Positions 1 to 55,405 of a stretch of 64,000 nucleotides of DNA are shown here, one piece after another. A program made the translations under genes and the position numbers. The DNA lies in the NCBI GenBank assembly GCA_947561395.2, contig OX387185.1, forward strand, positions 21,085,866 to 21,149,865. The letters run 5' to 3'. The stretch's first letter is position 1, and each line of letters begins with the position of its first letter. The notes beneath the pieces are model-generated. The model was not told the origin of the DNA. It worked only from the letters and a program-made list of their open reading frames with translations, and did no database searches. Source of the stretch: Buxus sempervirens (lineage: Eukaryota > Streptophyta > Magnoliopsida > Buxales > Buxaceae).

Positions 1-235
1 ACTGCGCACGTGGCAAAAGCTGCACATGTGGCGAGTTGCGCAGGAAAATATCTCGGGGATCAAATCTGTAAATATCCAAATGTTCGAAATATCCCAGGGA
101 CTAAATCTGTAAAAATCTCAGAATATCGGATTAAACCAAAAATTGCCAGGGACTAAATCTAAAAAAGTCGGATTTTTCGACCGGCAAGCGGCGGCATTAA
201 ATGATTTTTCATCATTTTGCCGCTCAGGCGGACGT

Positions 236-290
236 GGCAAGCGGCTATGCACTCAGCGCAAGCTGAGCAAATCCCTTTTTTTAAGTGAGC
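236..290. repeat. U3 palindrome cluster 1 of LTR kappa
   Basis: Short GC-rich quasi-palindromes built on 'ctcagcgcaagctgag' and 'tgagcagatcc' lie directly upstream of the TATA box. The core CTCAGCGC/GCGCTCAG recurs many times at 1350-1690 in the same LTR. Confidence 0.55.
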
Positions 291-308
291 AGATCCCCTT
301 TTCCTCGC

Positions 309-318
309 CTATTTAAAC
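309..318 (+). promoter_or_regulatory. Putative TATA box of LTR kappa
   Basis: The motif CTATTTAAAC lies immediately downstream of the first palindrome cluster (236-290). TATA-like motifs occur in the same relative place in the other family-O LTRs. Transcription is inferred, not shown. Confidence 0.5.
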
Positions 319-625
319 CGCGCGAGGCTTCATTACCGAGGGTTCAAAAATTTTGGGTTGGAAGATTTTTTGGTTGAAGTTTTTTTTGGAAAGCTTTTCT
401 CTCCTTGACCTTTCGTCTCTGAGAATGTGCTCTCCCCAACTCCCATCGACTCCTTAATTCCCAAAACACCCCACCTGCCGCGATCACCCATTTTCCTCTT
501 CTTCTTCTCTACCATCGCACCGAGGTCCGAAAAAGGAGGGTTGTTGTTGGAGGTTCAAAGGAAGGAAGCTCCAGCACTTTCATCTCAAGGAGGAGCCTCC
601 ACCCTGCACGTGAGCTTACGGAACC

Positions 626-633
626 TCAGGTAT
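626..633 (+). other. Putative 5' splice site in LTR kappa
   Basis: The sequence CCTCAG|GTATTG lies about 320 bp after the TATA box. An AG|GT site occurs at a similar place in almost every other family-O LTR in this window. It is predicted from position and sequence only. Confidence 0.4.
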
Positions 634-1349
634 TGTTCTCCACCTACATTTATTTTACATATATCAAGATGGGAGTTATCTAAGCATGCTATCGGACTTG
701 TTATTCCTCCTTACTGTCACATGCACATCATTCTGTTTTGATAACCTGGAAGTCTCCGAGGGTAAGGGAGACCCCATGAGACCCATGAGAAGATGGGAAG
801 TTTGCCATCCCACCTTCGGCCACCGTTCGGAGGGTTTCTATTGGTGGATTATTGAGTAAAGGGAATCTGTTCCCTTGTTTCGAGCATGTACTGTATATCC
901 CATGTAAACCCCCCCCCCCCCCCTCCCCCCTTCTATTTCTCGTCCCCGAGTGTTCACATGCATGCACGGAGGTCCGGTCAGGCATAGGTAAAAATGTCTC
1001 TCACTCATGGTATACTTGCTTGTCATTGTTCTTTTTGCTTCTTTCTCTGTATATTTGTTAGAATTGCCAACCTGCTCCCCCAACCCCCTGCCTATGTGCC
1101 TGCAAGCATGGTCCCTTCCCCATTACCCCTGTAGTGGTCTGTCGGTGTTGTTTTTTCGGGATAATCAGGTTTGGTTTTCTTTTTTAAGAGATTTGGAGTC
1201 ATGGTTCAAAGCATGTTTAGATTAATTTCAATGCATGATTAAGGTCTCTTGGGAGTCTGGGGAACACTTGGGAGGGCTTACAGAGTTTAAAAAACAATCA
1301 GAAATGGAGTTTGAGCAAAAAACCAGAATATCGGGTTTCGTAGGGGTAT

Positions 1350-1690
1350 GCGCCGAGCTCTGCGAGCTCAGCGCACCCAAAAAAAAGGTGAGCGGATCGT
1401 TTTTTTAGCATCCGCCGAGCTCGCGCCCACTTCTTAATTTTGGATGCGCTCAGCTCGTGCTCACTTAATTTTGGATGCGCTCAGCTCGCGCTCACTTAAT
1501 TTTGGATGCGCTCAGCTCGCGCTCACTTAGTTTTGGATGCGCTTAGCTCGCGCTCACTTAGTTTTGTGTGCACTGAGCTCACGCCCACTTGATTTTTGGG
1601 TGCGCTCAGCTCGCGCTCACTTGATTTTTGGGTGCGTTGAGCTCGCGCCCACTTGATTTTTGGGTGCGCTCAGCTCGCGCCCACTTCGCC
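1350..1690. repeat. Leader palindrome cluster 2 of LTR kappa
   Basis: About eight copies of a ~35-bp unit with core 'gcgctcagctcgcgctcact', separated by 'taattttggat' or 'tgatttttgggt'. The first unit has nearly perfect arms (GCGCCGAGCTC at 1350-1360 and GAGCTCAGCGC at 1364-1374). The cluster lies about 1 kb downstream of the TATA box and shares its core with cluster 1 at 236-290. Confidence 0.75.
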
Positions 1691-2803
1691 CGCGGATCTT
1701 TTTTTTGGTTTTTCGGTCCGCCCACCTCGCCGACCTTCCCTTGGACCCAGCACAATGAGCCAGTTTTTCCCTGACAAAGTGTCAGTCTTGTATATTTTTT
1801 GTGATTATTGCTGGATGTGAGTGCCATTTCCGAACCAAACCGAATAAACCAACAGGGTTTCCGGGTGACATGGGACTTGGACCCTTGATCCAACTTGATT
1901 TCCAGTGGGCCTTCCAACGGGGCCCACCCGGCCCAATAAACATGTATGCATGCAACTTAATCAAGATAAGCAAAATTAACCGATTAAACCGGGCGGGCCA
2001 AACCTAAGGCGGTCCACCCAAACCGGACTTGTGAAATTGATGCATGAAATGCGTGGTTTGGCCGAGACTAAGGGCAAGGGCCTATCGGGCCCGCCAAAGC
2101 CCACGAACCAACCGAGTAAGGGTTCAAAACCCTAACCTCACATAACCTGGGCTTTCAAACCCTAATCAGGACTATGGGCCCCAAGCCCAGTGTCCCACCC
2201 ATTTTTTGGAAACTTAAGTAAGATAAATCCAATAAATTACCAGGCCACCATGTGCGGCCCACCCAATGGGCCCACAAACCAAACCGGCCCGCTTTGCATA
2301 TAAATCACTTAATAATCCAACTTGAACTCCAAAATAAAATCAACTCATTGAACCAAAAATCCTAAGGGCCTCTCAGGCTTAGACTGAGGCCTACAAGGGT
2401 ACATGGGCCTGATCAAAGCCCACCAAGGACACCGTGGGCCTTCCAACAGGGCCCACCCAACCAGACCCAGATCACCTAATTAATCAAGATAAAAGCAATT
2501 AAAGGGACCCACACCACTCAGGTGGTCCCGCCAGACTTAACCAAACTGCATATTGGATTAGGAATCGGGTGAGACCAAAGTGAGCTGACTCAAACCAGGA
2601 TAAACCTAAGGGACCCGTCACCCGACAGGGTGGACCAGGGTGTCTACGGACTTCCCCGGACCACAACCGAGACCCTACTTAGAATCTCAAAGCCGCAGAC
2701 CAAAAGCCCTAATAGACAAGGTTAGGCACCCAGGTGTCCGCCTGCACCCCATCAGGTGGTGGCGACTTCGAATTTCCCGTGCCGCGTTTCCGACGAGCGC
2801 ACA

Positions 2804-2951: not shown

Positions 2952-3516
2952 TGTGCGCACGTCGTGATGAGATGCGCTACGCGAGGGGGCGCACGCGATG
3001 AAAGGGTGCGAGGGAACGGGGGTATAAGGAGTCGCCACTGCCTGATGGCGTGCAGGCAGACACCTGGGTGCCCTAAGGATGTCTACTTTGGTCTGCGGCT
3101 TTAGATTCTAGCTAAGGTCTCGATTACGGTCCGGGGAAGTCCGTAGACACCCCAGTCCGCCTTGTCAATTGACGAGTCCCATGTGTTTCCCTAGTTCGAG
3201 TCAATTTTTTGAGTCAATTTTGGTTCAACTCACCTTACGTCCTAAACCAACATGCTCACTTTATTAAGTCTAAATGGGACCTTCAAAGGTGTGAGTCCCT
3301 TTTATTTTAATTGATTTTTATCTTTTTTATCCAGGTGATGTTAGTCTGATGTGTGCCCCGTTGGAAGGCCCATTGGATACCAAAGAGGGCTTAGGTCAAG
3401 CCCAATTCCCATTTGGGGTTATGTCGGACAACCCAACTTATTGGATTTGGTTATGTGGTTTGAAGGTTAATGGAATGTACAAGATTGGTGGGTTTATGGG
3501 GCATAACCACAGAACA

Positions 3517-3560
3517 AGTGCGGTTTAGGGGTGAACCGCTCTATGTATACGGTTTTGACA
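3517..3560. repeat. Leader palindrome cluster 2 of LTR alpha (word AACCGCAC)
   Basis: GTGCGGTT, GAACCGC and ACGGTTTTG occur within 44 bp, about 1.7 kb downstream of the TATA box on the minus strand. This is the same word as cluster 1. Confidence 0.65.
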
Positions 3561-5250
3561 CAGAAAGCCCAAAAGGGAATTTTTCATGGGGGCTTTGGGT
3601 TCTTGTGTCTCTTGTGATGTTTCAGTAGTTGAGTGGGCCCCTGCGTGGGCCCACAGTGGTTCAGTGGAGGGGGAAGATCCCTTTCTGATCTCTTTTTGAG
3701 TTTCAGCAAGGGAAGGAGAGGGGGAGGCAAAGTAGATTGCCCTCTCCCATTTAAACCTCATACAATATTTTAACAGAGACCAACATATCTCTGTCTTGGT
3801 CTCTTGATCTTCATAAACAGCAAGCAAAACAAGTCCCATGAGTCCCTAAATCAAGGATTTAGCTCCTGCCTTAATCCAAGACCAGATAAACTCATGCTTC
3901 CCATGCACCATACTTGGGGGCAGAGACTTTTAAATTCAAATCCAAGTACCATGGAGGGACACCAATGCATACGCATGGAATTATTAGGTCTATCCCTAAG
4001 ATAAGCGTACTTGTCCATGCATTCAAACAATCCAGTAGCCAAACATTTCATATGAGCACCGATAAAAAGTAAATAAAAAACATGCTGTGGAAAAGTGGGG
4101 ACAGCAACTATTATGGGGGAGGGTTGCTCATGCTAGGGAGGTGTGGGAGCTACATGGGGATTGGGGGGAGAGTTGCCTTCATGCTTAGCCCTTGGGGGCT
4201 GTCCTAGGGGTGCTGGTATGTGGGTGGGCTTGCTGGAACAGCAGCTATGGCAGGAGGTTTTAAACATACTGGGACAGCTACGGTTAAGAGGGTTTAAGCG
4301 TGCTTGGACAGCAACCATCATGGGGGGTGTAGCATACGAATGGGGGATGTGGGGTAAATGAGCATGCTACTTACACCATACCAGAAACACAATAAAGGGT
4401 ACAACAGCAGCCGAACATGGGATAGGGGAAAGCATTATAGCGGGGTTTACATACACACCAGGCATTCAAAACAGTCGAGCAAGATGGCATGTCATTGTAC
4501 ACACAAAACAAAAGAAAAGATACAGCACACCTTCTGCAGTAAGATCAGGGACAGCATCCATGGGATAGAGGAAAGGGGGTGCTTGGTGCTCCCATCAATG
4601 GCTGAATGATAGTGGGGAAAGGGAGCATGCAATGTCAAAGCCAAGAGAGATAACCTAACTTACAAAAGAGATATACACAAGGGGAACACACTCCCCATTC
4701 GAATGAAATAAAACCATGACAAACTAGCCCTCAAACATACTCTAAAAAACATGTGAGGACTACACTCATACTTCCTTGGGACTATGCAAACACCATCTCT
4801 TACCTTGGAGACTTTGGTATGGCATGAGTGAAGAGAAAAGGTAACCAAAAAAATGCATGCTAGAGAATATGTTACAGCAAAGAGAAACAAATCCCTTGTA
4901 TCATCTCAAAACACACTCATCTTTATATATGTAAAGTAAAAAAAAATAGTAAGAGACAATACCTTGGGGTTTTACAACCCTTTTGAGGAGTGTGTGACCT
5001 ACTGGAGATTGGAACAGCAGCTGGCTCCTTCCTTTAGCTTCCCAGCAAGAAAAACCAGCTTCCTTCAAGCTTGGTGGGGGTGGGTAAGAGAAGTTAAGAG
5101 CTTAAGAGGTCTTGGGAATGGATTTGGGAGATGTGGGAGGCAAAGGAGATGGGAGAGGGGGGGGGGGGGGGGTTCGGAGCTTCAGGGTGCAAGGGAGATG
5201 GAGAAGGAATAGCCAATATCAGCCCTTCTTGTCCCACTGTTCGGATTTTC

Positions 5251-5260
5251 CTTTTATAGC
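5251..5260 (-). promoter_or_regulatory. Putative TATA box of LTR alpha
   Basis: The minus strand reads GCTATAAAAG directly downstream of palindrome cluster 1. This is the usual arrangement for family-O LTRs here. Confidence 0.6.
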
Positions 5261-5284
5261 AAACAAGGACAAAACTGCATACTC

Positions 5285-5460
5285 AGAGCGGTTTTGCCGA
5301 AATTGAATAGTAACCGCACATACCATGCGGTTTTGGTCAAAACCGCAGGTTATGTACGGTTTTGTCCTTGTCTTTTCAGTAATGATGAGGGGACAAATTG
5401 GTCAGACGCAGTCTGATGCGCCACGCAACCGTACTGTATGTGCGGTTGACTTTTTGGCGT
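5285..5460. repeat. U3 palindrome cluster 1 of LTR alpha (word AACCGCAC)
   Basis: Inverted copies of AACCGCAC/GTGCGGTT are scattered over about 175 bp. For example, AACCGCA at 5312-5318 pairs with TGCGGTT at 5326-5332. The same word recurs at 3517-3560 in this LTR and in LTR eta. Confidence 0.7.
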
Positions 5461-5849
5461 CGCTTTTTCTCCCCTTTTTTTGGTTGAGTTGATGGTTGAG
5501 GCGACTCAACCGCCTACTTGGATGAATTAGACTTCCCCAATTTTTATTATTTCCCATTTCTCTTAATTATTTTAATTAAGATATTTTAACTTGACTGTTT
5601 TGCCTCTGGGACTGTTTTGCTCATATCTTTTTCATCTGAGTTTTAATTCCTGCAAACTTAATTGTGTTGGAACCGTATCGGGAGGCTCTAACCATTGGGA
5701 TAGGGTATAGCAATCAATTTAGATTTAGAGGGAAAGTCATCTTTTGCTCTTAAGGGTTTAGACCTGTCTTTTAGGGTTTTGCTTTCAGGCTTTTAGAGGG
5801 GTGCAAAAATGAGGTGCTTACAACCAGCATCTCAAATCTAAAATGAGAT

Positions 5850-8629: not shown

Positions 8630-9268
8630 TCAAAATTTACCTTGTGATTCACCAAAGAGTGTAGGGTACTTCTTCCTCATTTCAGCTTCGTTCTCCCACG
8701 TAGCTTCTTTTACGTTGTGGTGTTGCCACAAGACTTTCACCATCAGAACAGTCTTGGTGTGGAGAACTTGTTCACATCTATCAAGGATTTGAACGGGATG
8801 CTCCTCAAACGTCACATCCTCACGGACTTCTAGTGACTCTAGATTAATAATATGGCTAGGATCCGGTACGTAACGACAAATCATGGATACGTTGAATACG
8901 TCATGTACATGGGCTAGCTGAGGTGGTAACTCCAATTGGTAAGCTACAGGCCCAACTGTCCCAACAATGCAGAATGGACCAATGAACCTGGGTGACAGTT
9001 TGCCTTGCTTACTGGACATCAATATGCCTCGGTAGGGCGATACCTTCAAGAATAACATATCCCCTACATCAAACTTCAATTCTCGCCTTCTCACATTGGC
9101 ATAGCTCTTTTGTCTGCTTTGGGCTGTTTTCAGACACTTTATAATCAAATTCACCTTATCTACACTGTCTTGAATGATCTGTGGTCCCAAATACTGCCTT
9201 TCACTTATTTCTTCCCAACACAACGGGGATCTACAAGTCCTCCCCTACAAAGCCTTGAATGGAGCCAT
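8630..9268 (-). pseudogene. Chromovirus (Tekay/Del-like) integrase C-terminus with chromodomain, broken
   Basis: This is the last ~210 codons of a Ty3/gypsy pol polyprotein. It reads from the conserved MAPF..L-GR..CRSP..CW segment through the GPY/F module (FIGPF...VAYQLELP) to the typical VHDVFNVS motif. It ends in a chromodomain (VQILD... then VKVLWQHHNVKEATWE) and a stop after GESQGKF. In this family the integrase inserts the cDNA, and the chromodomain is thought to guide it to chromatin. A TAG at 9245-9247 replaces the tyrosine codon expected in the AL-Y-GR motif, so the reading frame is interrupted. The catalytic DDE core and RNase H that should lie upstream are missing and replaced by LTR DNA up to 10949. 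The Tekay clade rests on motif similarity recalled from the family, not on a tree. Confidence 0.88.
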
Positions 9269-9660
9269 CTTCTTCTATGATGAAGAACGCTTCAACCAAG
9301 TTCCCTTCTTCTTCCTCAAGCGCAGATGATGAACCCTCTACAGCAACACAGAACTTCTTCTAGGATGAAGAATGCTTCAATATCAATGAAAACTCCTATT
9401 CTATCTCGGTCTTTGGTTTCCTTCAGCCGTCAGAGAATACAAATTTCAAAATACGATTAGTATTTCTGAGAAGTATTAACACTATTTTTAATCTCCTGAT
9501 TCCACATATCTCACTACCATCAACGCTGATGCTACTAACCAATCAGATTAATTAATAACCTTACATTAATACTTATTTATTTCATGATCCAACGGTCAGA
9601 TTTGCTGCAATCTCCGAATCTCTTCCATCAGTGTGATCACCTATATTTATAATTACAATT

Positions 9661-10872: not shown

Positions 10873-10949
10873 CAATCCATTAGTAAAATCCTCAATAAAA
10901 TACTTTTATTATTTAATTAAAAATTCCTGAAAATTTTCGGGGTCTTACA

Positions 10950-13005: not shown

Positions 13006-13606
13006 TGTAAGCACCACATTTTTGCACCCCCGGAAGTTCCAGAAATACAAACCCTAGCTGAAAAGTCAAACCCTAAAGAAGCAAAAGTTGAATTTTTGAT
13101 CAAGTGATAGTTGGCCACCTGGCTTTATCTCAATGGATAGATGATCCTAACACGGTTCCAACGCAACTGAGTTTGCTAGAATTGGAGTCCGGATGAAGGA
13201 TTTACACCCCAGTCAAACTTGAAGGGGAGCAGAAATTGACTTTCTACTAAACCCCAAATCAGCTACTTAACATTGTCCCAATGAATAGAGGACTCCTATA
13301 TGGTTCTAACGCAACTGAGTTTGCCAAAATCGGAGTCTGAGTGCAAAAGATATGAGCAGTTAAAGTTCTAGGGCAACAATGCTAGAAACTGCACACGTGG
13401 CAAACGAGCAGAAAAATATCTCACGGGTGAATCTGTAAATATCCAAAGTGCTAAAAATATCTCAGGGATTAATCCATAAATATCCAAAATGCTAAAAATA
13501 TCTCAGGGATTAATTCATAGATTTCCGGGGGCAATTTGCAATTATCTCAAGTGTCAAATCGGTCAAATCCGAGGGGCAATATGAAAATATTGAAAATTTA
13601 ACTTTT

Positions 13607-13854
13607 TGTATCCGACATATATGGTCGGATATGCATGTTTTCCTTTCTATCTAAAATACATTTTTAGATACAAAGGATGTTTCCCCGAATCTTGGCGGAT
13701 TCTCCGACAGATTCTCGGGGAAAATTAAATTTTCAAAATGATTATGCTTTGTATCCGACATTTTATGTCAGATACAAAGGCAACCCTGTGTATCAGACCT
13801 TCATGGCCGGATACACACAAAGTCATGTGTATCCGACCATGAAGGCCGGATACA
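13607..13854. repeat. U3 palindrome cluster 1 (word TATCCGAC)
   Basis: About eight copies of GTATCCGAC or its reverse complement GTCGGATAC occur, often paired around a short loop. One inner pair is CCCCGAATCT with AGATTCTCGGGG. The cluster ends just before the TATA box. The 3' LTR has the same cluster at 32634-32882. Confidence 0.78.
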
Positions 13855-13862
13855 CTTCATGC

Positions 13863-13871
13863 TCTATAAAA
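13863..13871 (+). promoter_or_regulatory. Putative TATA box of the 22-kb element
   Basis: CTATAAAAA lies immediately after palindrome cluster 1 and before the leader. The 3' LTR copy is altered to CAATAAAAA (32891-32899). Confidence 0.65.
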
Positions 13872-14150
13872 AGGGGGCAGCACCCCCTAGCCGAGGGTTG
13901 GCTTCTTTTGGCTAGTTTCCACCCCTCTTCCCCCACACTCTCTGATCCAAAAATCTCTCCCTTTGCCCCTCCTTGCCTCCCAAGCCATTCAAACACCATT
14001 TAAAGCCTATCCTACTCCTCCTTTCTCCATCTATTCCCCCACCTAGAAGCTTGAAGAAGGGGAGACCTGCCGTGGGTGCTAAAGGAAGGAGCTCCAGCCA
14101 CTTCACTTGCCTCAAGGAGGCTCAAATACACTTATCTAGGGTCTCTAAAC

Positions 14151-14162
14151 CCAAGGTAATGT
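14151..14162 (+). other. Putative leader 5' splice site
   Basis: CCAAG|GTAATGTT lies 293 bp after the TATA box. The 3' LTR has the same site at 33178-33189, and near-identical sites sit at matching places in the other family-O LTRs. Together with the acceptor at 19014 it would remove a ~4.9-kb intron. Confidence 0.5.
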
Positions 14163-15270
14163 TCCTTACCATATTTTATTTAATATAAGATGGAATGAGC
14201 ATGTTTTGAGCTCATTGGGTTGATTAGTGTTCACAACATGCTCCCATCCCCTTCAGCTCTCTCTTTTCTCTTATTTGTGCCCCCACTAAGGTGAGTAAGC
14301 CCCCCATGGCGAAGGGGGACCATACGTACAGGTTCTAAGAAGGAAAGAAAGGGGGTTTCACACACTTTTAAGGTGTTTTTAGTTTCTGTTTTGTTATGTT
14401 TTTTTCATTTCATATGGTGAGCATGTTCCCCTCCTCATCTTACTCGATGTATCCCTAATGTAATCCCCATATTCCCTTCACTTGTTTTACTTTGTTTTCA
14501 TGTTTTTATTCATCCATTCTTATCTCTCTAGGATGACTGACGCTTGCTGATTTTAGGTGTATGAAAATGAAGTGTATGCATGCAAGAAAGTCTCATTATC
14601 ATGTTCCCACACCCCCAAACCCAGCTCATCAATACCCTACGTGAAGGGTGCTTCTTCCACATTTTTTTTACATATCATGTCCAGCCCCTTTAACATGATT
14701 TTTCCCTCCTTAATGGCTGCTGCTCCATGCATTTGCAACATGATTATCTCCCCAGGATGCTTATGGAATAGGTTCCCCAATCATGGCTACCCTTTGAATG
14801 AATGCATATGTTCCCATCTTAGTAGCATGATAGGTCATTTTTTTCACTCATACCACTGTCCCTCTCTTGTATGAATGTGAGCTCACACACCTCTGTTTAT
14901 GGGTATAATACATGAGAATGCATGCTTGTGCCACGGTGTAAAGTATGCTAGGTTGTTTGCTTGATTTTTATTAACCTTGGTTACTTGCTATTTTGTGGAC
15001 TGACAGAGACCGAAATAGGGACCTCGTGGTCCCTGCTTTATTGTTAAGGTGAGTCCCAAATAGGGAAGAAGGAAGCCCCCATGCCTTCTCCCCCTCGGCT
15101 TTGATTCCTTAAAGCCCAAAAGAGACCAAAATGGGGTCTTCCCCATCTCTCTGAACCACTGTGGGCACACACCCTGAGAAGCCCAGGAATCCGAACCCAC
15201 TTCAAAAATCATGAAAAAGCCCTTTACAAGCTGGTCCGACAACTCATGTCAGATCAGCAGAACATTGTTT

Positions 15271-15376
15271 GTAGCCAACCAGGGTGGTCGGCTACACTAG
15301 TTTCTGTGTGCGGCCGACATCCAAGGTCGGCTACATTTGTTTTTGCGTGTAGTCGACACCCAAGGTCGGCTACACT
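15271..15376. repeat. Leader palindrome cluster 2 (word TAGCCGAC)
   Basis: Four alternating copies of GTAGCCGAC and GTCGGCTAC occur in about 105 bp. In the 3' LTR one pair is perfect over 9 bp (34390-34398 with 34406-34414). The word differs from cluster 1 by one base (TAGCCGAC against TATCCGAC). Confidence 0.78.
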
Positions 15377-16415
15377 GTTGGAATTCAAATTTTTTGTTTT
15401 TGGTTTTGTGCAACATTTTTTTCCTCTCTTAATCGAACCAAACGAGCCAATAGGACCCGGAAACCCAAAATGAGACATGGACCACGCGTTCCAATTGGAT
15501 ACACAGTGGGCCTTCCAACGGGGCCCACCAAGCCCAACAAGCATGCTTGAATTTAAATAACTTAATTAAGCAAAGTAAGTGGGCAACACCGTTCGAGGCC
15601 CACCCAAAGCCCTATTTTGGAGCATGAAGGCTTAGATTAGGACTGGTTTGGCCGAGACCGCGGGGCAAGGCTTGCCAAGCCCATTAACCAGACAAGGGTG
15701 GGGTTCCTAAACCTTAACCCAGAGTGCCCGGGGCTTTCAAGCCCAAACCTAGATACGGGACCCAAGCCCAATCCTGGCCCACCATGGGAGAAATTTAATG
15801 AAGATAACTCAAACCACTTGGCCACCATCGTGAGGCCCACCCAGGGGCCCACAAACCAATCCAAGCCCACTTTGCATGAAAATCAACTTAATCTCAAACT
15901 TGAACTTTAAATAAAATCAACTCATTGAACCAAAGCCCAAAGGGCCTCTCAGGTTAGACTGAGGCCCAACAAGAGGCACGGGGGCTGGACTTAGCCCATT
16001 AAGAGATTCGTGGGCCTTCGGCCCACCCAATCAGACCAAGTTCGCTTAATTAAACAAGATAAAATCAAATAAAGGGACCCACACCACTCAGGTGGTCCTG
16101 CAAGACTCAATAAAAAGTGCATGTTGGAATAGGAAACGGATGAGTAAGAAAAACCGAGTTGACTCGAACCAGGGAAACCTATGGGACCCATCATTTGACG
16201 GGGCAGACCGGGGTGTCTACGGACTTCCCCAGACCATAACCGAGACTTGGTTTAGAATCTCTAGTCGCAGACCACCTAATAGACAAACCTAGGCACCCAT
16301 CTGTCTGCCTGCACCCATCAGGCAGTGGCAACTCCAAACTTCCCGTTTTACCCATCCGAAGGCACGCACTTCCACGTGCGCCTCGCGGTGTGGCGTTTCC
16401 AACGCACGCACAGCC

Positions 16416-22495: not shown

Positions 22496-22510
22496 GCGCG
22501 AGCTCGGCGC
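22496..22510. repeat. U3 palindrome cluster 1 of the nested LTR
   Basis: GCGCGAGCTCGGCGC lies about 30 bp upstream of the TATA box. Its reverse complement matches 24920-24934 in 14 of 15 bases. Confidence 0.65.
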
Positions 22511-24915: not shown

Positions 24916-25045
24916 GTATGCGCTGAGCTCGCGCGGAGCATTTTTGCGTCCGCCGAGCGCGCGCGCGGGTGCCTTTTTTGGTTGTTTTTGTACCGCCGGG
25001 CTCGCGCTGACCTCGTGCCGAGCGCCCAGAGGTCAACGCACCCCC
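24916..25045. repeat. Leader palindrome cluster 2 of the nested LTR
   Basis: GC-rich inverted repeats around GCGCTGAGCTCGCGC (24920-24934), 'cgccgagcgcgcgcgcgg' and 'gggctcgcgctgacctcg'. It is next to the GTCGC target site of the inserted solo LTR. Confidence 0.7.
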
Positions 25046-32024: not shown

Positions 32025-35000
32025 TGTAAGCACCTCATTTTTGCACCCCCGGAAGTCCCAGAAATGCAAACCGTAGCTGAAAATTCAAACCCTAAAGGGG
32101 CAAAAGTTGACTTTTTGATCAAGTGATAATTGGCTACCTTGCCTTATCTCAATGGATAGAGGATCCCGACATGATTCCAACGCAACTGAGTTTGCTGGAA
32201 TCGGAGTCTAGATGAAGGATTTATAGGCCAGTCAAACTTGAAGGGGAGCAGAAATTTACTTTTTGCTAAACCCCAAATCAGCTGCTTAACCTTGTCCCAA
32301 TGAATAGAGGACTCCGACACAGTTCTAACGCAACTGATTTGGCCAAAATAGGAGTCTGGGTGTAGAAAATATGAGCAGTTGAAGTTCTAGGGCAGCAATG
32401 CCAAAAACTGCATACGTGGCAAAAGAGTAGAAAAATATCTCAGGGGTGAATCCGTAAATATCCAAAGTGCTAAAAATATCTCAGGGATTAATCCATAAAT
32501 ATCCAAAATGCTAAAAATATCTCAGGGATTAATCCGTAGATACCCGGGGGAAATCTGCAATTATCTTAAGTGTCAAATCAGTCAAATCGGTCAAATCCGG
32601 GGGGAACCTAAAAATATCGAAAATTTAAGTTTTTGTATCTGACATATATGGTCGGATATGCATGTTTTCCTTTCTATCCGAAATACATTTTCGGATACAA
32701 AGGATTTTTCCCCGAATCTTGTCGGATTCTCCGACAGATTCTCTGGGAAATTTAAATTTTCAAAGTGTTTATGTTTTGTATCCGACATTTTATGTTGGAT
32801 ACAAAGGCAACCCTGTGTATCCGACCTTCATGGCCGGATACACACAAAGTCATGTGTATCCGACCATGAAGGCCAGATACACTTCATGCTCAATAAAAAG
32901 GGGGCAGCACCCCCTAGCCGAGGGTTGGCTTCTTTTGGCTGGTTTCCACCCCTCTTACTCCACACTCTCTGATCTGAAAATCTCTCCCTTTGCCCCACCT
33001 CGCCTCCAAGGCCATCCAAACACCATTTAAAGCCTATCCTACTCCTCCTTTCTCCATATATTCCCCCACCTAGAAGTTTGAAGAAGGGGAGACCTGCTGT
33101 GGGTGCTAAAGGAAGGAGCTCCAGCCACTTCACTTGCCTCAAGGAGGCTCAAATACACTTCTCCAGGGTCTCTAAACCCAAGGTAATGTTCGTTACCATA
33201 TTTTATAAAATATAAGCTAGAATGAGCATGTTTGGAGCTCATTGGGTTGATTACTTTTCATAGCATGCTCTTATCCCCTACAGCTCTCTCTTTTCTCTTA
33301 TTTGTGCCCCCACTAAGGTGAGTAAGCCCCCCATGGTGAAGGGGGACCATACGTACAGGTTCTAAGAGGGAAAGAGAGGGGTTTTCACCCACTTTTAAAG
33401 TGTTTTCAGTTTCTGTTTTGTTATGTTTTTTTCATTTCATATGGGGAGCATGTTCCCCTCCTCATCTTTCTCCGATGTATCCCTAATGTAATCCCCATAT
33501 TCCCATCACTTGTTTTACTTTGTTTTCATGTTTTTATTCATCAATTCTTATCTCTCTAGGATGACTGACGCTTGCTGATTCTAGGTGTATGAAATGAAGT
33601 GTATGCATGCAAGAAAGTCTCATTATCATGTTCCCCAAACCCCAAACCCAGCTCATCAATACCATACGTGAAGGGTGCTTCTTCCACATTTTTTTTACAT
33701 ATCATGTCCAGCCCCTTTAACATGATTTTTCCCTCCTTAATGGCTGCTGCTCCATGCATTTGCAACATGATTATCTCCCCAGGATGCTTATGGAATAGGT
33801 TCCCCAATCATGGCTACCCTTCGAATGAATGCATATGTTCCCATCTTAGTAGCATGATAGGTCATTTTTTTCACTCATACCACTGTCCCTCTCTTGTATG
33901 AATGTGAGCTCACACACCTCTGTTTATGGGTATAATACATGAGAATGCATGCTTGTGCCATGGTTTAAAGTATGCTAGGTTGTTTGCTTGATTTTTATTA
34001 ACCTTGGTTACTGGCTGTTTTGTGGACTGAGATAGACCGAAACAGGGACCTCGTGGTCCCTGCTTTATTGTTAAGGTGAGTCCCAAATAGGGAAGAAGGA
34101 AGCCCCCATGCCTCCTCCCCCTCGGCTTTGATTCCTTAAAGCCCAAAAGAGACCAAAATGGGGTCTTCCCCATCTCTCTGAACCACTATGGACCCACACA
34201 ACTGTTGGAATACCCTGAGAATCCCAGGAATCCGAACCAACTTCAAAAACCATGAAAAGGCCCTTTACAAGCTGATCGGACAACTCAGGTCGAATCAGCA
34301 AAACATTGTTTGTAGCTGACCAGGGTGGTCGGCTACACTGGTTTCTGTGTGTAGCCAACATCCAAGGTCGGCTACATTTGTTTTTGCGTGTAGCCGACAC
34401 CCAAGGTCGGCTACACTGTTGGAATTCCAATTTTCTTTTTTTTGGTTTTGTATAACATTTTTTTTCTCTCTTAATCGGACCAAATGAGCCAATAGGGTTT
34501 CCAGGTCACCTAGAAACCCAAAATGAGACATGGACCGCGTGGTCCAATTGGATACACAGTGGGCCTTCCAACGTGGCCCACCAAGCCCAACAAGCATGCT
34601 TAAATTTAAATAACTTAATTAAGCAAAGTAAGTGGGCCACACCGTTCGAGGCCCACCCAAAGCCCAATTTTGGAGCATGAAGGCTTAGATTAGGACAGGT
34701 TTGGCCGAGACCGCTGGCAAGGGCCTATCGGGCTCACCAAGCCCATTAACCAAACAATGGTGGGGTTCTTAAACCTTAACCCAGTGTGCCTGGGGCTTTC
34801 AAGCCCGAACCCAGGATACGGGCCCCAAGCCCAATCCTATCCCACCATGGGAGAAATTTAATGAAGATAACTCAAACCACTTGGCCATCAACGTGAGGCC
34901 CACCCATGGGCCCACAAACCAATCCAGACCCACTTTGCATGAAAATCAACTTAATCTCAAATATGAACTTTAAATAAAATCAACTCATTGAACCAAAGCC

Positions 35001-38691: not shown

Positions 38692-38932
38692 TCCAGGTGA
38701 TGTTAGTCTAATGTGGGCCCCATTGGAAGGCCCATTGGAAGCCAAATAGGGCTTAGGTCAAGCCTAGTTCCCATTTGGGGTTATGTCGGGTAACCCAGCT
38801 TATTGGATTTGGTTATGTGGTTCGGGGGTTGATTAAATGTACTAGATTGGTGGGTTTACTGGACTTAACCACAGAACAGTTGTGGTTTGGCTTCAACCGC
38901 ACATACAGTGCGGTTGGGGTCAAACGGCTCTG
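38692..38932 (-). mobile_element. Family-O LTR eta, piece 1
   Basis: It matches 3340-3530 of LTR alpha in the same orientation and ends in palindrome cluster 2 (AACCGCAC at 38895-38902 pairs perfectly with GTGCGGTT at 38908-38915). It is continued at 41641 after LTR C is removed. Confidence 0.78.
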
Positions 38933-39560: not shown

Positions 39561-39749
39561 TACACCGGCGGGAGGTACAATACCCAATAATCGGTAAACA
39601 ATATTCCATGAACAATAAATACCAACAAACCAGCGAATAAAAAATATCACGTCAAAACAAATCAAGTACCAACATTGGTCAATGTCATGACTATTGTTTA
39701 GTTGATAAATTAAACATGCCAAGTAGACACTCCACACCTCCATGTACAC

Positions 39750-40484: not shown

Positions 40485-40755
40485 GCCGCTCACTTCCTGA
40501 GGTGGGCGCGAGGTGAGCGCCGGTCGGCGGTGAAGAATTGGGGTAAAAACGACTTACCGCTCACTCGACGCTATGTGAGCGTGAGCCGAGCGCGAGATGG
40601 GCGTGAGGTGGGCGCGAGATTCGCGCGAGATGAGCGCATAGTTTTCTGCTGAGAGCGAGCTGAGCGCCAGCCGGGCGTGAGCACGGCGGTGGGTCGTGTT
40701 TAACGGGGCGCCTACCTCTGAGGTGAGCGCCGGTGAGCGCGAGGTGGGCGGATAC
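40485..40755. repeat. GC-rich repeat island in LTR C
   Basis: More than a dozen variants of 'gtgagcgcgag', 'gtgggcgcgag' and 'gagctgagcgcc' occur in 270 bp. It is co-linear with 27460-27700 in LTR A. Confidence 0.72.
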
Positions 40756-45697: not shown

Positions 45698-47339
45698 TAG
45701 GCGGTCTGCGGCTTGAGATTCTAAGCAAGTTCTCGGTTATGGTCCGGGGAAGTCTGTAGACACCCCGGTCCGCCCCGTCAAGTGACTGGTCCCATAGGTT
45801 TCCCTGGTTTGAGTTGATTTGGTTTCTCACCCGATTCCTAATCTTGCATGCACATTGGTTAAGTCTGGTGGGATTGCCAAAGTGGTGTGGGTCCCTTTAC
45901 TTGATTTTATCTTCTTAACTTGAAGTGATCTGAGTTTGATCGGGCGGGCCCCGTTGGAAGGCCCACAGGATGCCAATTTGGGCTTTAGTGAAAGCCCAAG
46001 TCCCTTTTGGGGTTACGTCGGATAACCCCTTTTTGGCTTTGGTTGATTTGATGGATTGTATTTGAAGTTCAAATTGGGATTTTAAGTATTTTTCATGCCA
46101 AAAAGTGGGTCTGGATGGTTTTGTGGGCCCATTGGGTGGGCCACACAGTGGTTGCCAAATGATTTTGATTTATCTTTATTTGTTTGAACCAAAGTGGGCT
46201 AGGCATGGGCTTGGGGCCCTTAGCTTAGAACTTAGGGTTTTAACCCTTCAAATTCAGTTAATGGGCTTGGCCGGCTCGATAGGCCCTAGCCCGCGGTCTC
46301 GGCCAAACCATTCCTAATCTAGGCCTGCATGCTTCAATTTGGGCTTTGGTGGGCCTCACATGGTCTAGCCCACTGGATTGAGTTAATTTGCTTATTTAAG
46401 ACGATATGAGTTTGTTGGGCTTGGTGGGCCCCGTTGGAAGGCCCACTGTGAGTCAAGTTGGGCCGGCGGTCTAAGTCCCCTCTTGGGTTTCCGGGTCACC
46501 CAGAAACCCTACTGGTTCATCCGGTTCGATTTGGAGAGTAAGAAAATTGCACAAAACCAAGCAAAATGGGAAAATGAGATTTCGGTGATGTAGCCGGCCA
46601 GAGATGCCGGCTACAAACAAACACAAGTTGATCCGACCTGAGTTGCCGAATTAGCAAATAGGGATGGTTTTTTTGGGATTTTTGCTATGGGATTGAGTTC
46701 TTAGGTCTTCTAGGATGTTCTAGTGATTGTGTGGGCCCTTGTGTGGGCCCACAGTAGTGCAAACAAGACTAAACTAAAAGTGAACTACATAAAAGAAGGG
46801 GGTAAAGGGGATTATTCAAAAGGGTACATGAGATAAAATTAAAGGGGAACACCCTCCCCTATCAATAACAATAACAGTGATTTTTTGAGTGCTCAAGAGC
46901 CAACTCAAAAGTCACCCCTCTCCTCTCTTGAAGTTGACCATGTATCTTCCCCTTACCATGGGATTTTCTTATGCAAAAATGGAGAAGAGAAAGTATAGAA
47001 AGAACATACAACACATGCTTAAAGTGGAAAGAATAAAGTGGCTAAAAAGCTCCTGCTCACATGGAGCTCCTTTTCATATATGGTGAACAAAAGACCATAG
47101 GGAACATTACCATGGGGTTTTTGAACCCTTGAGTGGAGTGGTGGCACCTCCTTGAAGCTTGGACGGCTGCTGGAGCAGCTCCCTCCTACCACCAACAGCA
47201 AGCTTCTCTTGGTTGGTTGGGTGAAGAATGAAGAAGAAGAGAGGGAAAGAGAGAGAGCTCAAGGTGATGCTTGAAGGGTTTGGGGAGAGAGGTTAGAGAA
47301 GAGAGTGGAGAAGGAAATGGTGGGAGACAAAAGTGTGCT

Positions 47340-47340: not shown

Positions 47341-47371
<31 letters not shown>
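47341..47371. repeat. Homopolymer of 31 C
   Basis: An uninterrupted C run lies 20-50 bp downstream of the TATA box of LTR delta (a G run on the transcribed sense). Its length may not be exact, because such runs are error-prone. Confidence 0.9.
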
Positions 47372-47890: not shown

Positions 47891-49339
47891 TAATCCCTGA
47901 GACCTTTTTGCTCTGCTGCTTGCCACATGTACAGACTTTTGCCACGTGTGCAGTTTGCCGGTTTTGCTGCTCGAAAACTTCGACAGCTCATATTTTCTTC
48001 ATCCGGACTCCGATCTGGGCAAACTCAGTTGCGTTAGAATCGTATCGGAGTCCCCTATCCATTGGCATAGGGTTAAACACCTAGATCAGGGTTTAGTAGA
48101 AAGTCAACTTTCGGCTCCCTTCAAGTTTGACTGGCTCATAGATCCTTCATCCGGACTCCGATTCCAACAAACTCAGTTGCGTTGGAACCGTGTCGGAATT
48201 TTCTATCCAATGAGATAAAGCAAGGTGGTCAATTATCACTTGATCAAAAATCAATTTTTTGTCCCCTTAGGGTTTTGACTTTTCTGCTGTATTTTAGCAC
48301 ACATTTTTTTTGTTTTCTTCTTTGTTTCTTTTTTTTTGGTTTGATCAAAATTTGGGTGCTTACAGAGTCGCCACTGCCTGATGGGGTGCAGGCAGACACC
48401 TGGGTGCCTATGTTTTTCTATTAGACTGGTCTGCAGCTTGAGATTCTAAGCAAGTTCTCAGTTGCGGTCTGGGGAAGTCCATAGACACCCCAGTCCACCC
48501 CGTCGGATGACGGGTCCCATAGGTTTTCTTGGTTCTGAGTCAATTCGGTTTCTTACTCACCCGATTCTTATTCCAATATGCACATTTGTTGAGTCTGGCG
48601 GGGACTGCCAAAGTGGTGTGGGTACCCCTTTTTGATTGATTTTATCTTTTTAGCTTAAAATGATGTGAGCCTGATTGGGCGGCCCTGTTGGAAGGCCCAC
48701 GGATTCCTTGGTGGGCTGAGTCCAACCTACATGCCTTTGGTGGGCCTCAGTCTAGCCTGAGAGGCCCTTTGGGCTTTGGTTCAATGAATTGATTTTATTC
48801 AAGATTCAATTTGGAGATTAAGTGATTTTTCATGCCAAGGTGGGCCGGGATTTGTGTGTGGGCCCATTGGGCAGGCCCACAGTGGTAGCCAAATGATTTG
48901 AATTATTCTTGATTAAATTTTCCAATTTGAGCTAGGAATGGGCTTGGGGCCCATAGCCTAGGCTCGGGCTTGAAAGCCCAAGACTTTCTGGGTTAGGGTA
49001 TTGGACCCTACCCTTGCTTGGTTCAATGGGCTTAGTGGGCCCGATAGGCCCGTACCCTCGATCACGGCCAAACCACCTATCCTAAGCAAACATGATCCAA
49101 TTTGGGCTTTCGATGGGCCTCAAATGGTGTGGCCCACTCAATTAATTCAATTATCTTATTTAACACAAAGTGAGTTGTTTGGGCTGGTTGGGCCCCGTTG
49201 GAAGGCCCACAGTGAATCAAGCTGGACTCGAGCAGTCCAAGGCCTACAATGAGTTTCCGATTGACCCGGAAACCCTACTGGTTCACTCGGTTCGGCTTAA
49301 ACAATACAACCAATCACCAACATTCAAAAAATCAGGTTT

Positions 49340-49500
49340 TCATCAAAATTTTAAAGTAACCGAAAATTGATTTCGGTCAAACACCAAATACAGTATAACC
49401 GAAAATGGATTTCGATTATGCTGTAATTCTAGCTTAAACGAAATTGGATTTCGGTTAAGCCAGAAAACACTCTTAACCGATCTAAGTTTTCAGTTAACCT
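49340..49500. repeat. Leader palindrome cluster 2 of LTR beta (word AACCGAAAT)
   Basis: Four inverted pairs of TAACCGAAA / TTTCGGTTA variants, about 1.1-1.3 kb downstream of the TATA box. The word is the same as in cluster 1. Confidence 0.8.
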
Positions 49501-50639
49501 GTAGAAAACCACTTTTCCACTTTTTCCACAAAAAATCAATCCATGGTGCTTGTGTGCATGTATGAGGCCTACGTGGGCCCCTGTGTGGGCCCACAGTGGT
49601 ATAAAAACCCGAAGATTGGCCTTGCTTGGCCACCAGCTAGTCAAATATACACCCAAATTGCATTATCTACAACCAAATAACTCAAGGACGAAGCAAACAC
49701 AACTCCCTACATGCTTAAACTTAGTGGAGGAAGGTGCCCATGCTCATGCCTTCATGCCAAAAGCAATGAAGTTGAAGAGGGAATCTAACATGCCTTATTT
49801 GAACCAAACATGCATGTGCTCATGTGCATATGTGGAAATAGAAGAGGACAACATGAAAAACAAGACAAACAGCAGGTGAGGCATGGAGATCATGGTATGT
49901 GGGTGGGATGAAGCATGCTATTCATGTACACAAGCAAAAATCCTAATGCTAGGCAAACCCTATTTCATGATAAAACAAACACAACGATACTAAGCATGAC
50001 ACTTAAGCTAACATGGAAAAATAAAGAAGGGATCCGGGGGGTTTAATCGGGTACAAAAGATTTAAAGGGTGAGAGGAGAACATGCTCTCCTTATACTTTA
50101 TACAACATGTGAGTGCACGGGGTGGAGATGCGGACATGGCCTAACTGAACCAAACTCTTGTGTCCTCCCGTGAAGCCCATCCCTCTCTCCTTACCATGAG
50201 AGCTCTACTATTAGGAGGGGAGCATCAAATGAAGAAGAAAAGGAGATCCAACATACTAAACTCAATGAAAATAACATACAAGAGGCGAAGAATATTACAA
50301 TATGCTCACAATGCTCTTATTCTCATATATGTCGAATGAAATTACCAAGGAAGCTTACCTTGAGGGCTTAAAGACCCTTGAGTGATGAGTTGAACTTCCT
50401 TCAAGGCTGGGACAACACCTAGCCACCTCTCCTTGAGCTCCACCAAGTCCTCCAAGGCCTCCTCCAAGTGTTTAAGGATCAAGGAGATGGGTAGAGAAGA
50501 GGTTTGAAGTGGTTAGGATATGGTTTAGGGCTTTAAGATGTAGAAAGAAAGGGGGGAAGAGGGGTTCGGACAAGGATGGGAGAGAGGGTAGAGCAAAAAG
50601 TCTCCAACCCCCGAAAATGAGCTGCTGAGCAACTTTTAT

Positions 50640-50860
50640 TGACAAAAATTGAATAACTGGAATTTAATTTCGGTTATGAAGAAAATATAGTATAACTGAA
50701 ATTTAATTTCGGTTATACTATAAACCATGTGTAACCGAAATTTAATTTCGGTTACTTTTGCACTTGATTAGCAATTAATTTCTGTCAGGTATGGAATCAG
50801 AGAATCTATCGGGCGATTTTTGATTTCACTTTATGAACCGGAATTGAATTTCGGTTATTC
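50640..50860. repeat. U3 palindrome cluster 1 of LTR beta (word AACCGAAAT)
   Basis: Five inverted pairs. The best is GTAACCGAAAT (50731-50741) with ATTTCGGTTAC (50745-50755), a perfect 11-bp stem around TTA. Confidence 0.85.
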
Positions 50861-51429
50861 TGCCAATATTTTTGATATTTACAGATTGCCCCCCGGATTT
50901 GACCGATTTGACCGATTTGACACTGAGATATTCGCAGATTGCCCCCTGCGATATTTTGGATTAAACCCTGAGATATTTTGCAGATTTTGGATATTTATGG
51001 ATTGCCCCTTGAGATATTTTCCTACTTTTCTCGCCACGTGTGCAGTTTCCGACATTGCTGCCCAGAAACTTCGACAGCTCATATCTTCTTCATCCGGACT
51101 CCGATTTGAGCAAACTCAGTTGCGTTAGAACCGTATTGGAGTCCTCTATCCAATGGGACAAGACTAAGCACCTGATTTGAGGTTTAGGAAAAAGTCAACT
51201 TTCGACTCCCCTTAAGTTTGACTGGCCTGCATATCCTTCATCCGGACTCCGATTCCTGCAAACTCAGCTGCGTTGGAACCTTGTCGGGATCCTCTATCCA
51301 TTGAGATAAAGCAAGGTGGCCAATTATCACTTGATCAAAAAGTCAACTTTCACCCCCTGAGGGTTTGACTTTTCAGCTGGGTTTTGCAATTTCGGCACTT
51401 CCAGGGGTGCAAAAAATGAGGTGCTGACA

Positions 51430-52002
51430 GGATGTTCAGTGGGCAGGGGAGAAGGAGAAGGAACAGTGGAGACTAGCCATCCCCTATCCCATGTCCGAAT
51501 TTGCCTTTTATAGAACACTGGGACAAAACCGCATGCTCAGTGCGGTTTTGCCAAAAATGAACAGTAACCGCACATACCGTGCGGTTTGGTCGAAACCACA
51601 GGGTATGTGCGGTTTTGGCCTCGTCTTTTCAGCATTTAATAGGGGGACAAATTTGTTAGGCACAATCTGACGCGCCATGCAACCGCATTGTAAGTGCAGT
51701 TACTTTTCACGCGCCGCTTGCGCTGATTGGCTCGCGCGAGCGGTGGCCGAAAAATCAACCGCACTTCATATGTGCTCGCGAACCTGGGACTGTTTTGCTC
51801 ATATCTTCTCCATCCGGCTCCGATTCCTGCAAACTTAATTGCGTTGGAATCATGTCGGGATGCTCTATCCATTGGGATAGGGTATAGCAATCAATTTAGA
51901 TTCAGAGGGAAAGTCATCTTTTTTGCTCTTAAGGGTTTAGACCTGTATTTTAGGGTTTTGCTTTCTGGCTTTTCAGAGAGGTGCAAAAATGAGGTGCTTA
52001 CA
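51430..52002 (-). mobile_element. Family-O LTR eta, piece 3 (U3 start)
   Basis: It starts on the minus strand at 52002 (TGTAAGCACCTCATTTTTGC) and contains cluster 1 (51527-51780, word AACCGCAC) and a TATA box (CTATAAAAGG, 51505-51514). Its left edge joins piece 2 when compared with alpha at 5090-5190. Confidence 0.78.
51527..51780. repeat. U3 palindrome cluster 1 of LTR eta (word AACCGCAC)
   Basis: Repeated AACCGCA(C)/(G)TGCGGTT pairs, co-linear with 5285-5460 of LTR alpha. The same word sits in cluster 2 at 38874-38930. Confidence 0.75.
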
Positions 52003-53160: not shown

Positions 53161-53884
53161 TGTGCGCACCTAAAAAAAATCCTAGATCGCACACGGGGCG
53201 CACGTGGGTTCGTGCGTGCCTTGAGACATTTGGAGTCGCCACTGCTTGAGAGGTACAGGCAGACACGGTGATTGCTCTATCCGGATCTAAGTCTGGTCTG
53301 CGGCTTTTCAGAGTTCTAGCTAAGTCCTCGGTTACGTCCGGGGAAGTTTGAAGACACCCCGGCCCACCCCGTCGGTCTGACGGATCCCTCGGGTCTCCCT
53401 GGTTTTGAGTCAGTTTCACCCATCCTAGGTCAGTATGCCACTTTGTTTGGTCTGGCGGGACCCTCCAGTGGTGTGGGTCCCTTTTTATTTTATTTTATCT
53501 TTTTATTTAGGTGAGGTGGGTCGGATACGGGTCCTGTTGGAAGACCCGTGGGTTGTCAAGGTTGGGCCTGGGCTCAGTAGGGTTATTGGGTAACCCTATT
53601 TGGTTTTTTTATTTAATTAATTATATATATGTGTTGGAGCTTGATGGGCTTGGATTTAGCCCATTAGCAATGGATCAAGGGGCCTCGGGCCCATTTGTCG
53701 AAAACGGATCTTGTACGAACCAGTCAAAATGTGGGCCACACACGTGGGCCCAGGGTGTCTTGGTGGGCCCATGGTCTGTAAATGGATAAAAATAGCCCAA
53801 ACAACAATAAAGGGTGGGTCAGACTGGTTCGGGTCGGAGCATATCCATCCGGGCCAAAAAAAATTAGATTTTTTAAGTTATTAT

Positions 53885-54000
53885 ATAATTGCCCGTATTT
53901 TCTATACGGGCGGGCCTTGCCCGTAAATGTGATACGGTTTAGGCCTTCCCGTATAGGAAATACGGGCATGCCCAGCCCGTACTATAAATACGGGCACGCC
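53885..54000. repeat. Leader palindrome cluster 2 of LTR zeta (word CCCGTAT)
   Basis: GCCCGTAT (53891-53898) pairs perfectly with ATACGGGC (53904-53911). Further pairs follow at 53945-54000, including 'cccgtactataaatacgggc'. Confidence 0.82.
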
Positions 54001-54805
54001 TGCATTTACAGTTTTATGCCAATTTTTGCTGGGGATCATTCCGGTAAGTCTTTTATGGAGTCTGGTGACGTCCGTCGGGGTTTGCAGTATCTTCACGGCA
54101 ACAAATGAACTCTTTTCTTAACCATATTCTTCTTCTTTGCTTCTTCCTTTTTTCTTTATTCTTCACATGGTCGTTCTTTGTATGAGAATCAAGAGAGGTG
54201 CCAGAGATTCTTTACCATCTTGCTAAACTCATAAGCACGTATTCACCATCACTCGGGAAGATAGGAAGTTGGTAAGAGGTTGATCTAACTCTTTTTATCT
54301 TACATGAAATAAAGCCATATTGTCCTAGATGACTTTTGTTCATCATATTCAAAACTCTCTTTCTTCAACTTTTAGTTGAATCTTGTCCCCAACACGCCAT
54401 GCTCAATATTACACACGTTAGAAGCCAATGGATGTGAGAAATAAATAACAAAGTAAGTGACACAAACTTAAGAAATTGATATGCATTGAATGAAACAACC
54501 TCCCTTTTACTATTACCTTCTTACTTCTTGACAAGTGGTGGTTCTCTGGTAATTTTAGCAGCGCTTCCGCGTCTCCGTGGATTTTCTGAATTGGTTTTGA
54601 AAGGGTTTTGTTACTGTGAGGTGGGAAGGTTTGAGAGAGGAAGGGATTATGTAAGGTTTATGGTCAGCATAAGGGCATTTCGGGTATTTTGGGGTTTGGG
54701 TATTGAAAGTGGCAGGGCTTGGGTAGGGGTTGGTCGTAGAAATGGCAAAGAAGGAGAGGGAGGGTGGCTAAAGGGGTCAGCTTACCGAAATGGGGGGCTG
54801 GCCCT

Positions 54806-54817
54806 CCTATTTATAGG
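54806..54817 (-). promoter_or_regulatory. Putative TATA box of LTR zeta
   Basis: CCTATAAATAGG on the minus strand lies directly next to cluster 1. Confidence 0.6.
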
Positions 54818-54824
54818 CAAAAAA

Positions 54825-55060
54825 GTCATGCCCGTACTCAAAGTGCGGGCATGCCTTGCCCGCAATTGATTTATGGGCGCGCCCTGCCCGTATTACAAAT
54901 ACTGGCGCGCCGCCCTCGTGCGCAAATCTCGCACTAATCGCCTGTACAGGATGCGTGTCCCGCCATACGGTGACACGTGTCTTCTTCCAGAAGGCTTGCC
55001 CGTATTTGAAGTACGGGCATGCCCTACCCGCACTTCAAATACGGGCGAGCACGTTTTTAA
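54825..55060. repeat. U3 palindrome cluster 1 of LTR zeta (word CCCGTAT)
   Basis: CCCGTA (54999-55004) pairs with TACGGG (55012-55017), alongside several CCCGTACT, CCCGCAATT and CGGGCATGCC copies. It is next to the TATA box at 54806-54817. Confidence 0.8.
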
Positions 55061-55192
55061 AATGTTTTGATTTGAAACCACTATTCAATTTATTTTTTGT
55101 AAGATTTTTATTCGATTTTCTTTTATTATTTTATTATAAAACGAGATTCTTTAATTTAAAATATTATTAAAATATTTAATATATTGACAAGT

Positions 55193-55405
55193 TGTAGACA
55201 CCCCAAATTGCACTACAAAATGAGAAAATAATGAAAACATGTAATTGGGATTTAAAACAGGCCAAAATGCATAAAATTCAATCATTTCAGCAGTGTCCGT
55301 ATTATACCTGCGGCCTAGTTGCGCCCGAATTTTGTATACGGGCACGCAACGCCCATAATACAAATGCGGACACCATTTGCCCGCAATATGTCTACGGGCA
55401 CAGGA
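55193..55405 (+). mobile_element. Start of a TGTAGACACCCC-type LTR, truncated
   Basis: The first ~43 bases match 63947-63990 (TGTA(G/A)ACACCCCAAATTG, then 'cactacaaaatgagaaaataat'). A cluster at 55300-55400 uses the same CGGGCA word as LTR zeta. It ends where minus-strand internal sequence begins. Confidence 0.55.

Follow-up and report, generated by a model that had tools for sequence, protein, structure and literature searches.

CCG-N11-CGG palindromes in matched arrays before the TATA box and in the leader of long-LTR retroelements of Buxus sempervirens

The 64,000-nucleotide stretch of Buxus sempervirens DNA analysed here (contig OX387185.1 of assembly GCA_947561395.2, positions 21,085,866 to 21,149,865; hereafter the window) is a nest of retroelements with long terminal repeats (LTRs). 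The LTRs placed are those of a 22-kb element (el22, two LTRs), kappa, alpha, the nested delta, beta, gamma, eta and zeta (Table 1). TGTAAGCACCTCATTTTTGCACC or a near variant forms the start of several LTRs, among which U5 is conserved; the eta LTR is in pieces and was identified via its homology to alpha. The two LTRs of el22 (13005-16416 vs 32024-35447) align at 91 % over 3465 columns. Comparison of 67 plus-strand open reading frames (ORFs) of the el22 interior with Pfam yielded a Retrotrans_gag match (PF03732; 19775-20068, E 1e-13) and a second, marginal family (DUF7419, E 0.0098), but no match to reverse transcriptase or pol; among the scanned ORFs (sets of 94 and 67; E up to 0.01) no DNA-binding domain was listed. 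The long LTRs, TGGCAACTCCGCTGGGGA after the el22 5' LTR and the gag match are only suggestive of Tat/Ogre-like elements (Ty3/gypsy).

A first-pass annotation of the window had proposed that each LTR of this family carries its own palindromic word twice, in a cluster before the TATA box (U3) and in another in the transcribed leader. Of the seven LTRs listed, el22 (in both of its LTRs), beta, zeta, alpha and eta indeed show the two clusters where they had been placed, while kappa and the nested LTR carry a different word. The words had further been regarded as usually wholly different between LTRs; however, el22, beta, zeta, alpha/eta and gamma have the skeleton CCG-N11-CGG in common, and it is the letters around CCG that differ by family. 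When all 3-letter half-sites were combined with their reverse complements at gaps of 0-30 (64 x 31 spaced palindromes), CCG-N11-CGG ranked first by z in the window (32 occurrences, 3.1 expected), with CCG-Nk-CGG at the remaining gaps occurring 1-11 times each; 300 local dinucleotide shuffles gave 3.6 ± 1.7 (maximum 8). Arrays contain 27 of these 32 strict sites, counting the single site of gamma and an extra array with the zeta word. Between adjacent sites, CGG-N11-CCG (12) and CGG-N22-CCG (20) are found. The window thus contains a multicopy palindromic motif made of CGG and CCG triplets, the constant unit of which is the outward CCG-N11-CGG and not an inward CGG-(short gap)-CCG core. The array sites used for the TATA-gap/permutation, shuffle, footprint and core-deviation analyses were hand-picked from the site table, with sites 32731, 34805, 38927, 53375 and 53707 omitted; the extra zeta-word array (55297-55397) was omitted from the permutation/TATA and footprint analyses, and the gamma site was compared apart in the former.

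For replication, the LTR head of el22 was searched in the assembly of the window (676.5 Mb), with 42 matches listed and 40 of 7,687 first-look candidates scored. The 40 loci then fetched (4.8 kb each from the LTR head, two overlapping) were picked by the head and not by the palindrome. CCG-N11-CGG again ranked first (178 vs 11.1, z 50; 64 x 26 palindromes). Two word classes dominate, TATCCGAC and TAACCG[A/G]AA, and zeta-like arrays with 27-28 bp steps are present as well.

The U3 cluster is located shortly upstream of TATA, the last site preceding it by 15, 15, 16, 16, 16 and 16 bp (two el22 LTRs, beta, zeta, alpha and eta, respectively). The 40 loci contain 47 site-TATA pairs at gaps of 3-59 bp, 25 of them at 14-17, 17 at 54-56 (i.e., +39) and 5 elsewhere. 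Adjacent sites of the window follow each other in steps of 39 (17 times), 28 (8) or 29 bp (2), seven more values occurring once each; arithmetically, 28 equals 17+11 and 39 equals 17+22. In the loci, the spacing of strict sites has its peaks at 39/78/117 and 27-28/55/83 bp.

In the five uninterrupted LTRs of the window, the leader array lies about 0.9-1.8 kb downstream of the U3 array. A splice-donor-like AAG|GTAATG is present 281-319 nt past TATA in seven of eight window LTRs (delta is without it) and 254-301 nt (one at 366) past TATA in 23 of the 31 fetched loci in which TATAAA is present. As this motif occurs about 250-320 nt after TATA, an intron may contain the leader array. The leader array was also considered as a second promoter, which was rejected: TATAWA follows within 70 bp in just two of 12 paired loci (at 44 and 9 bp), the array end in L038 and L054 having been placed too far downstream for this side to be properly covered. 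Antisense TATAWA upstream of the array was found in none of the 12 paired fetched loci.

The words of the two clusters had been described as identical or one base apart within an LTR, in surroundings that are unlike. Letters do match within an LTR in el22, beta, zeta, alpha and eta; in el22, TATCCGAC of U3 and TAGCCGAC of the leader differ by one letter. In a 5 x 5 permutation of the window arrays, half-site similarity on the diagonal amounts to 0.738, a value reached only by the true one of 120 arrangements. With alpha and eta merged (four families), it is 0.735 vs 0.342 off-diagonal (one of 24 arrangements). Pairs were also formed automatically, by requiring TATA after the U3 array and, within 420 bp after the leader array, a near match to GGGCCTTCCAACGGGGC. 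The resulting 17 pairs (five from the window, 12 from the fetched loci) reached 0.753 vs 0.564 ± 0.033 (0 of 50,000 permutations), the similarity within an LTR exceeding that of shuffled pairs; given that family copies are kin, two of the 17 being LTRs of one element, and fall into four U3 word classes, this result is a measure of linkage. The U3-leader classes of the 17 pairs are TAT-TAG (7), TAA-TAA (6), TAT-TAT (2), TGC-TGC (1) and AAA-AAA (1). A cruder rule without the downstream anchor, nested arrays included, gave 0.637 vs 0.566 for 24 loci (47 of 20,000 permutations).

Letter by letter, the CCG/CGG triplets of U3 and leader agree equally within and between families (0.77-0.94), and so do the inner positions 6-10, whereas agreement in the flanks (0.75 vs 0.39) and at the inner edges (0.81 vs 0.32) is higher within a family than between families. 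Linkers are slightly more alike within a family (0.42 and 0.37 vs 0.26). In both arrays, the letters next to CCG are near-random between families (0.21 at -1 and +1), with CCG and N11 unchanged. Tandem arrays of a family-specific motif are thus found both in U3 and in the leader, two non-coding places. In a motif-free comparison, 11-mers shared by U3 and leader are clear in beta and zeta, clear only at the level of blocks in alpha/eta and kappa/delta, weak in el22 (3' leader left untrimmed) and noisy in gamma; alpha U3 shares no 11-mer but ten 10-mers with its own leader. A single recent conversion tract is rejected as the origin of the match, since it would have brought along linkers and centres, which match little, the match being restricted to the half-sites.

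The shared core, the fixed gap and the constant distance to TATA favour a DNA-binding dimer. In both clusters, the sites probably bind a regulator that is dimeric, recognises a specific sequence and controls the promoter of the element itself; a shared DNA-binding target, which the first-pass annotation had listed as an alternative, fits best, and its other alternative, a small-RNA target, could be a consequence. Each site comprises an inverted pair of NNN-CCG-NNN half-sites, with 11 bp between their CCG triplets. Core and spacing are common to the families, and the neighbouring letters would serve as a family-specific address. Family-specific flanks and inner edges next to unspecific positions 6-10 suggest two contacted half-sites around an uncontacted centre. 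The U3 array stops 15-16 bp short of TATA, more sites lying upstream in 39-bp or 28-bp steps, and the leader would offer this regulator another array, probably within a leader intron. Binding may act on transcription or on silencing, and the regulator may be a host protein or, like VANC in VANDAL transposons, a product of the element. A search on LOB-domain proteins as candidate binders yielded nothing usable.

Several observations weigh against such a regulator. Steps and TATA distances may persist by descent without current selection, and 28 of the 40 loci, like the interrupted eta, are without a complete pair under the automatic rule. Gamma is an exception in that its leader site has no counterpart in U3; in kappa and the nested LTR, the word is a different, GC-rich one (GCGCYGAGCTCGCGC type). 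The internal ORFs of el22 yield gag as the one solid Pfam match, and the binder is only putative. Symmetric covariation of the site halves (see below) would follow from hairpins, too.

An element-encoded reader is rendered plausible by two precedents. VANC proteins bind tandem family-specific motifs located upstream of genes and in introns and co-diversify with them (PMC5735166, PMC10398659), and elements of the plant gypsy lineage Retand often encode an antisense protein domain for which DNA binding is suspected by the authors (PMC11963269). As described in the former two sources, VANDAL motifs resemble the present ones in being short, family-specific, tandem and changed together between related families; they differ in belonging to DNA transposons, in the non-palindromic, uniformly oriented motif of VANC21 (YAGTATTAY) and in their known reader protein. 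By analogy, one may tentatively speculate that autonomous members encode a homodimeric regulator which recognises CCG-N11-CGG with a family-specific half-site address, co-diversifies with its sites and provides each family with a private, VANC-like on-switch or anti-silencing function.

Alternatively, the palindromes could act as locally folded hairpins of RNA (or single strands) which either supply small-RNA production and RNA-directed methylation or are maintained by them. Local folds of the U3 clusters alone are indeed strong (-54 to -121 kcal/mol), and the halves of a site co-vary symmetrically. In the TAT/TAG class (n=65), this is strong and concerns -1, +1, +2 and +3, whereas +1 and -4 are the positions concerned in the TAA class (n=34), 56 of the 181 unique strict sites belonging to no class and the four alpha/eta sites being too few. 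This covariation could reflect either a dimer of paralogous specificities or a hairpin; it is absent in the zeta class (n=22), which speaks against hairpins, and at the central positions +4 and +5. The core deviates 21 times among 96 half-sites, in 18 cases by C>T or G>A; decay of methylated cytosines would give this pattern, which silent, methylated copies would be expected to show. The observed/expected ratio of CpG is 1.13 in the clusters vs 0.39 in the rest of five of these LTRs at similar GC content, an excess partly due to the CG contained in the word. Sirevirus palindromes are small-RNA hot spots and, in case of maize, have a proposed role in small-RNA production and RNA-directed methylation (PMC5311732, PMC10760457). 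However, hairpins leave the single gap length, the CCG core across differing words and the constant TATA distance unexplained, and we consider them an unlikely basis of the arrays.

Still more doubtful is an origin without any trans-acting reader, by tandem duplication and conversion in one ancestral LTR, the arrays matching by common descent alone. The 39-bp and 28-bp steps do resemble tandem duplication, and kin copies inherit both arrays jointly, so that the 17 pairs represent few independent families. Descent alone would, however, not be expected to leave half-site letters matched next to unmatched inner centres and barely matched linkers, nor to turn over the CCG-adjacent letters in both arrays while CCG and N11 are kept. 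The role favoured by the first-pass annotation, in which the words let the element RNA pair its 5' end with its 3' end or mark it as self for dimerisation, packaging or strand transfer, is highly improbable. It is true that each word is complementary to itself and recurs in both clusters of its LTR, and that zeta and alpha/eta gain most from pairing with words of their own class, beta nearly so (but not el22). Yet the predicted U3-leader gain, at -3.3 to -7.5 kcal/mol in five of the six LTRs (alpha -13.7), is small against the strong local folds, and shared skeleton and TATA placement are left without a reason.

The arrays have several parallels. In U3 of Tnt1, the BI palindrome and the BII tandem repeats are cis elements, a leader copy of which is not known to us. 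Papillomavirus E2 binds as a dimer to ACCG-N4-CGGT sites adjoining TATA, and foamy virus Tas acts on the U3 promoter and an internal promoter; the likeness to these viral proteins, with different spacing, is one of mode of action only. Closest are the Sireviruses (Ty1/copia), the LTRs of which contain element-specific multicopy CGG-CCG palindromes that cluster upstream of TATA and form CpG islands, and the word recurs in the linker domain of the nine env-bearing members (77 of 79 copies before ENV; PMC2829016). The same paper, in which these boxes were described in 2010 and no single binding factor could be named (Bousios et al. 2010), also notes the symmetry of Tnt1 box I. The present arrays share with these boxes the CGG/CCG palindromes, the many copies, the position upstream of TATA and the repetition of the word in a second cluster, which is thus not new in kind. 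In Sireviruses, by contrast, CGG and CCG face inward with gaps of N4-N6 (own count from Table 3 of PMC2829016), and the internal region houses the second cluster, whereas here the gap is a single N11, the TATA distance is fixed and the second array belongs to the leader of the LTR, in elements matching Retrotrans_gag.

No description of CCG-N11-CGG or of a matched leader array in Ty3/gypsy-type LTRs was recognised in the portions of the literature searched. As far as these searches show, the novelty lies in the single N11 grammar, the half-site address of which diverges, in the fixed distance to TATA and in the location of a second array within the LTR leader. With so rigid a grammar, the palindromic CGG/CCG arrays of plant LTRs become a concrete question of protein binding, and there is a suggestion that LTR retrotransposons may recognise themselves by sequence.

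Table 1. LTRs, arrays and GC-rich words in the window (TATA gap, distance in bp from last U3 site to TATA)
Feature	Coordinates	Strand	Remarks
el22 5' LTR	13006..16415	+	3.4 kb; pairs with 32025-35447; LTR head at 13006
el22 5' U3 array	13612..13849	+	4 sites, word TATCCGAC
el22 5' TATA box region	13864..13876	+	TATAAA starts 15 bp past last U3 site
el22 5' leader array	15236..15369	+	4 sites, step 39, word TAGCCGAC
el22 3' LTR U3 array	32639..32876	+	TATA gap 15
el22 3' LTR leader array	34316..34410	+	3 sites, step 39
beta LTR	48365..51429	-	head and tail motifs, homology
beta U3 array	50657..50854	-	4 sites, word TAACCGAAA, TATA gap 16
beta leader array	49360..49493	-	4 sites, step 39, word TAACCGAAA
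zeta U3 array	54832..55044	-	5 sites, step 28 (one gap 112), word TGCCCGTA, TATA gap 16
zeta leader array	53893..53993	-	4 sites, step 28, word TGCCCGTA
alpha LTR	2990..5822	-	head 5822, tail motif 3028; tail-end outer limit approximate
alpha U3 array	5275..5445	-	4 sites, word AAACCGCA, TATA gap 16
alpha leader array	3507..3552	-	2 sites, step 29
eta U3 array	51529..51699	-	4 sites, word AAACCGCA, TATA gap 16
eta leader site	38897..38913	-	word AAACCGCA; split from eta U3 by nested insertions
gamma LTR	48364-45680	-	absent from first-pass annotation
gamma leader site	46594..46610	-	single, word TAGCCGGC
kappa U3 GC-rich word region	236..290	+	not CCG-N11-CGG
kappa leader array	1349..1686	+	31-bp tandem, GCGCTCAGCTCGCGC type
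nested (delta) U3 GC-rich word	22496..22510	+	
nested (delta) leader GC-rich word	24920..24934	+	

In U3 of gamma, CATGCATG-type repeats, presumably RY-like, take the place of CCG-N11-CGG, and a run of 31 C (47341-47371, plus strand) directly follows TATA. Kappa and delta contain no CCG-N11-CGG at the thresholds of the site table, one strict but asymmetric match being present in kappa U5 (at 1980). The match between U3 and leader is weak in kappa (four shared 11-mers); in delta, the leader word and the reverse complement of the U3 word agree in 14 of 15 letters (by eye). The third array with the zeta word (55297-55397; steps 56 and 28) is located just beyond the presumed head of the zeta LTR and has no TATA at the usual distance.

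A further repeat (26678-28386 and 39027-41640) carries GC-rich GAGCTGAGCGC-type words, partly as direct repeats of about 11 bp, and has a head-like TGTAAAACCCC on the minus strand near 41635; by eye, it looks like part of the kappa leader. One of its copies adjoins the eta leader cluster. LTR head and U5 motifs had no exact match in viral_contigs, and the window yielded no Rfam matches and no ARAGORN genes. SH3_Tf2-1, weak Chromo and RVT_1 matches at 8630-11406 (minus strand) are apparently remains of another retroelement. Within el22, a 59-bp tandem repeat of about 10 copies (18213-18813) lies 5' of the gag match. At 59569-60881, there are complex tandem repeats built around CCTTGCTCC, the periods of which are about 34, 60, 93 and 131.

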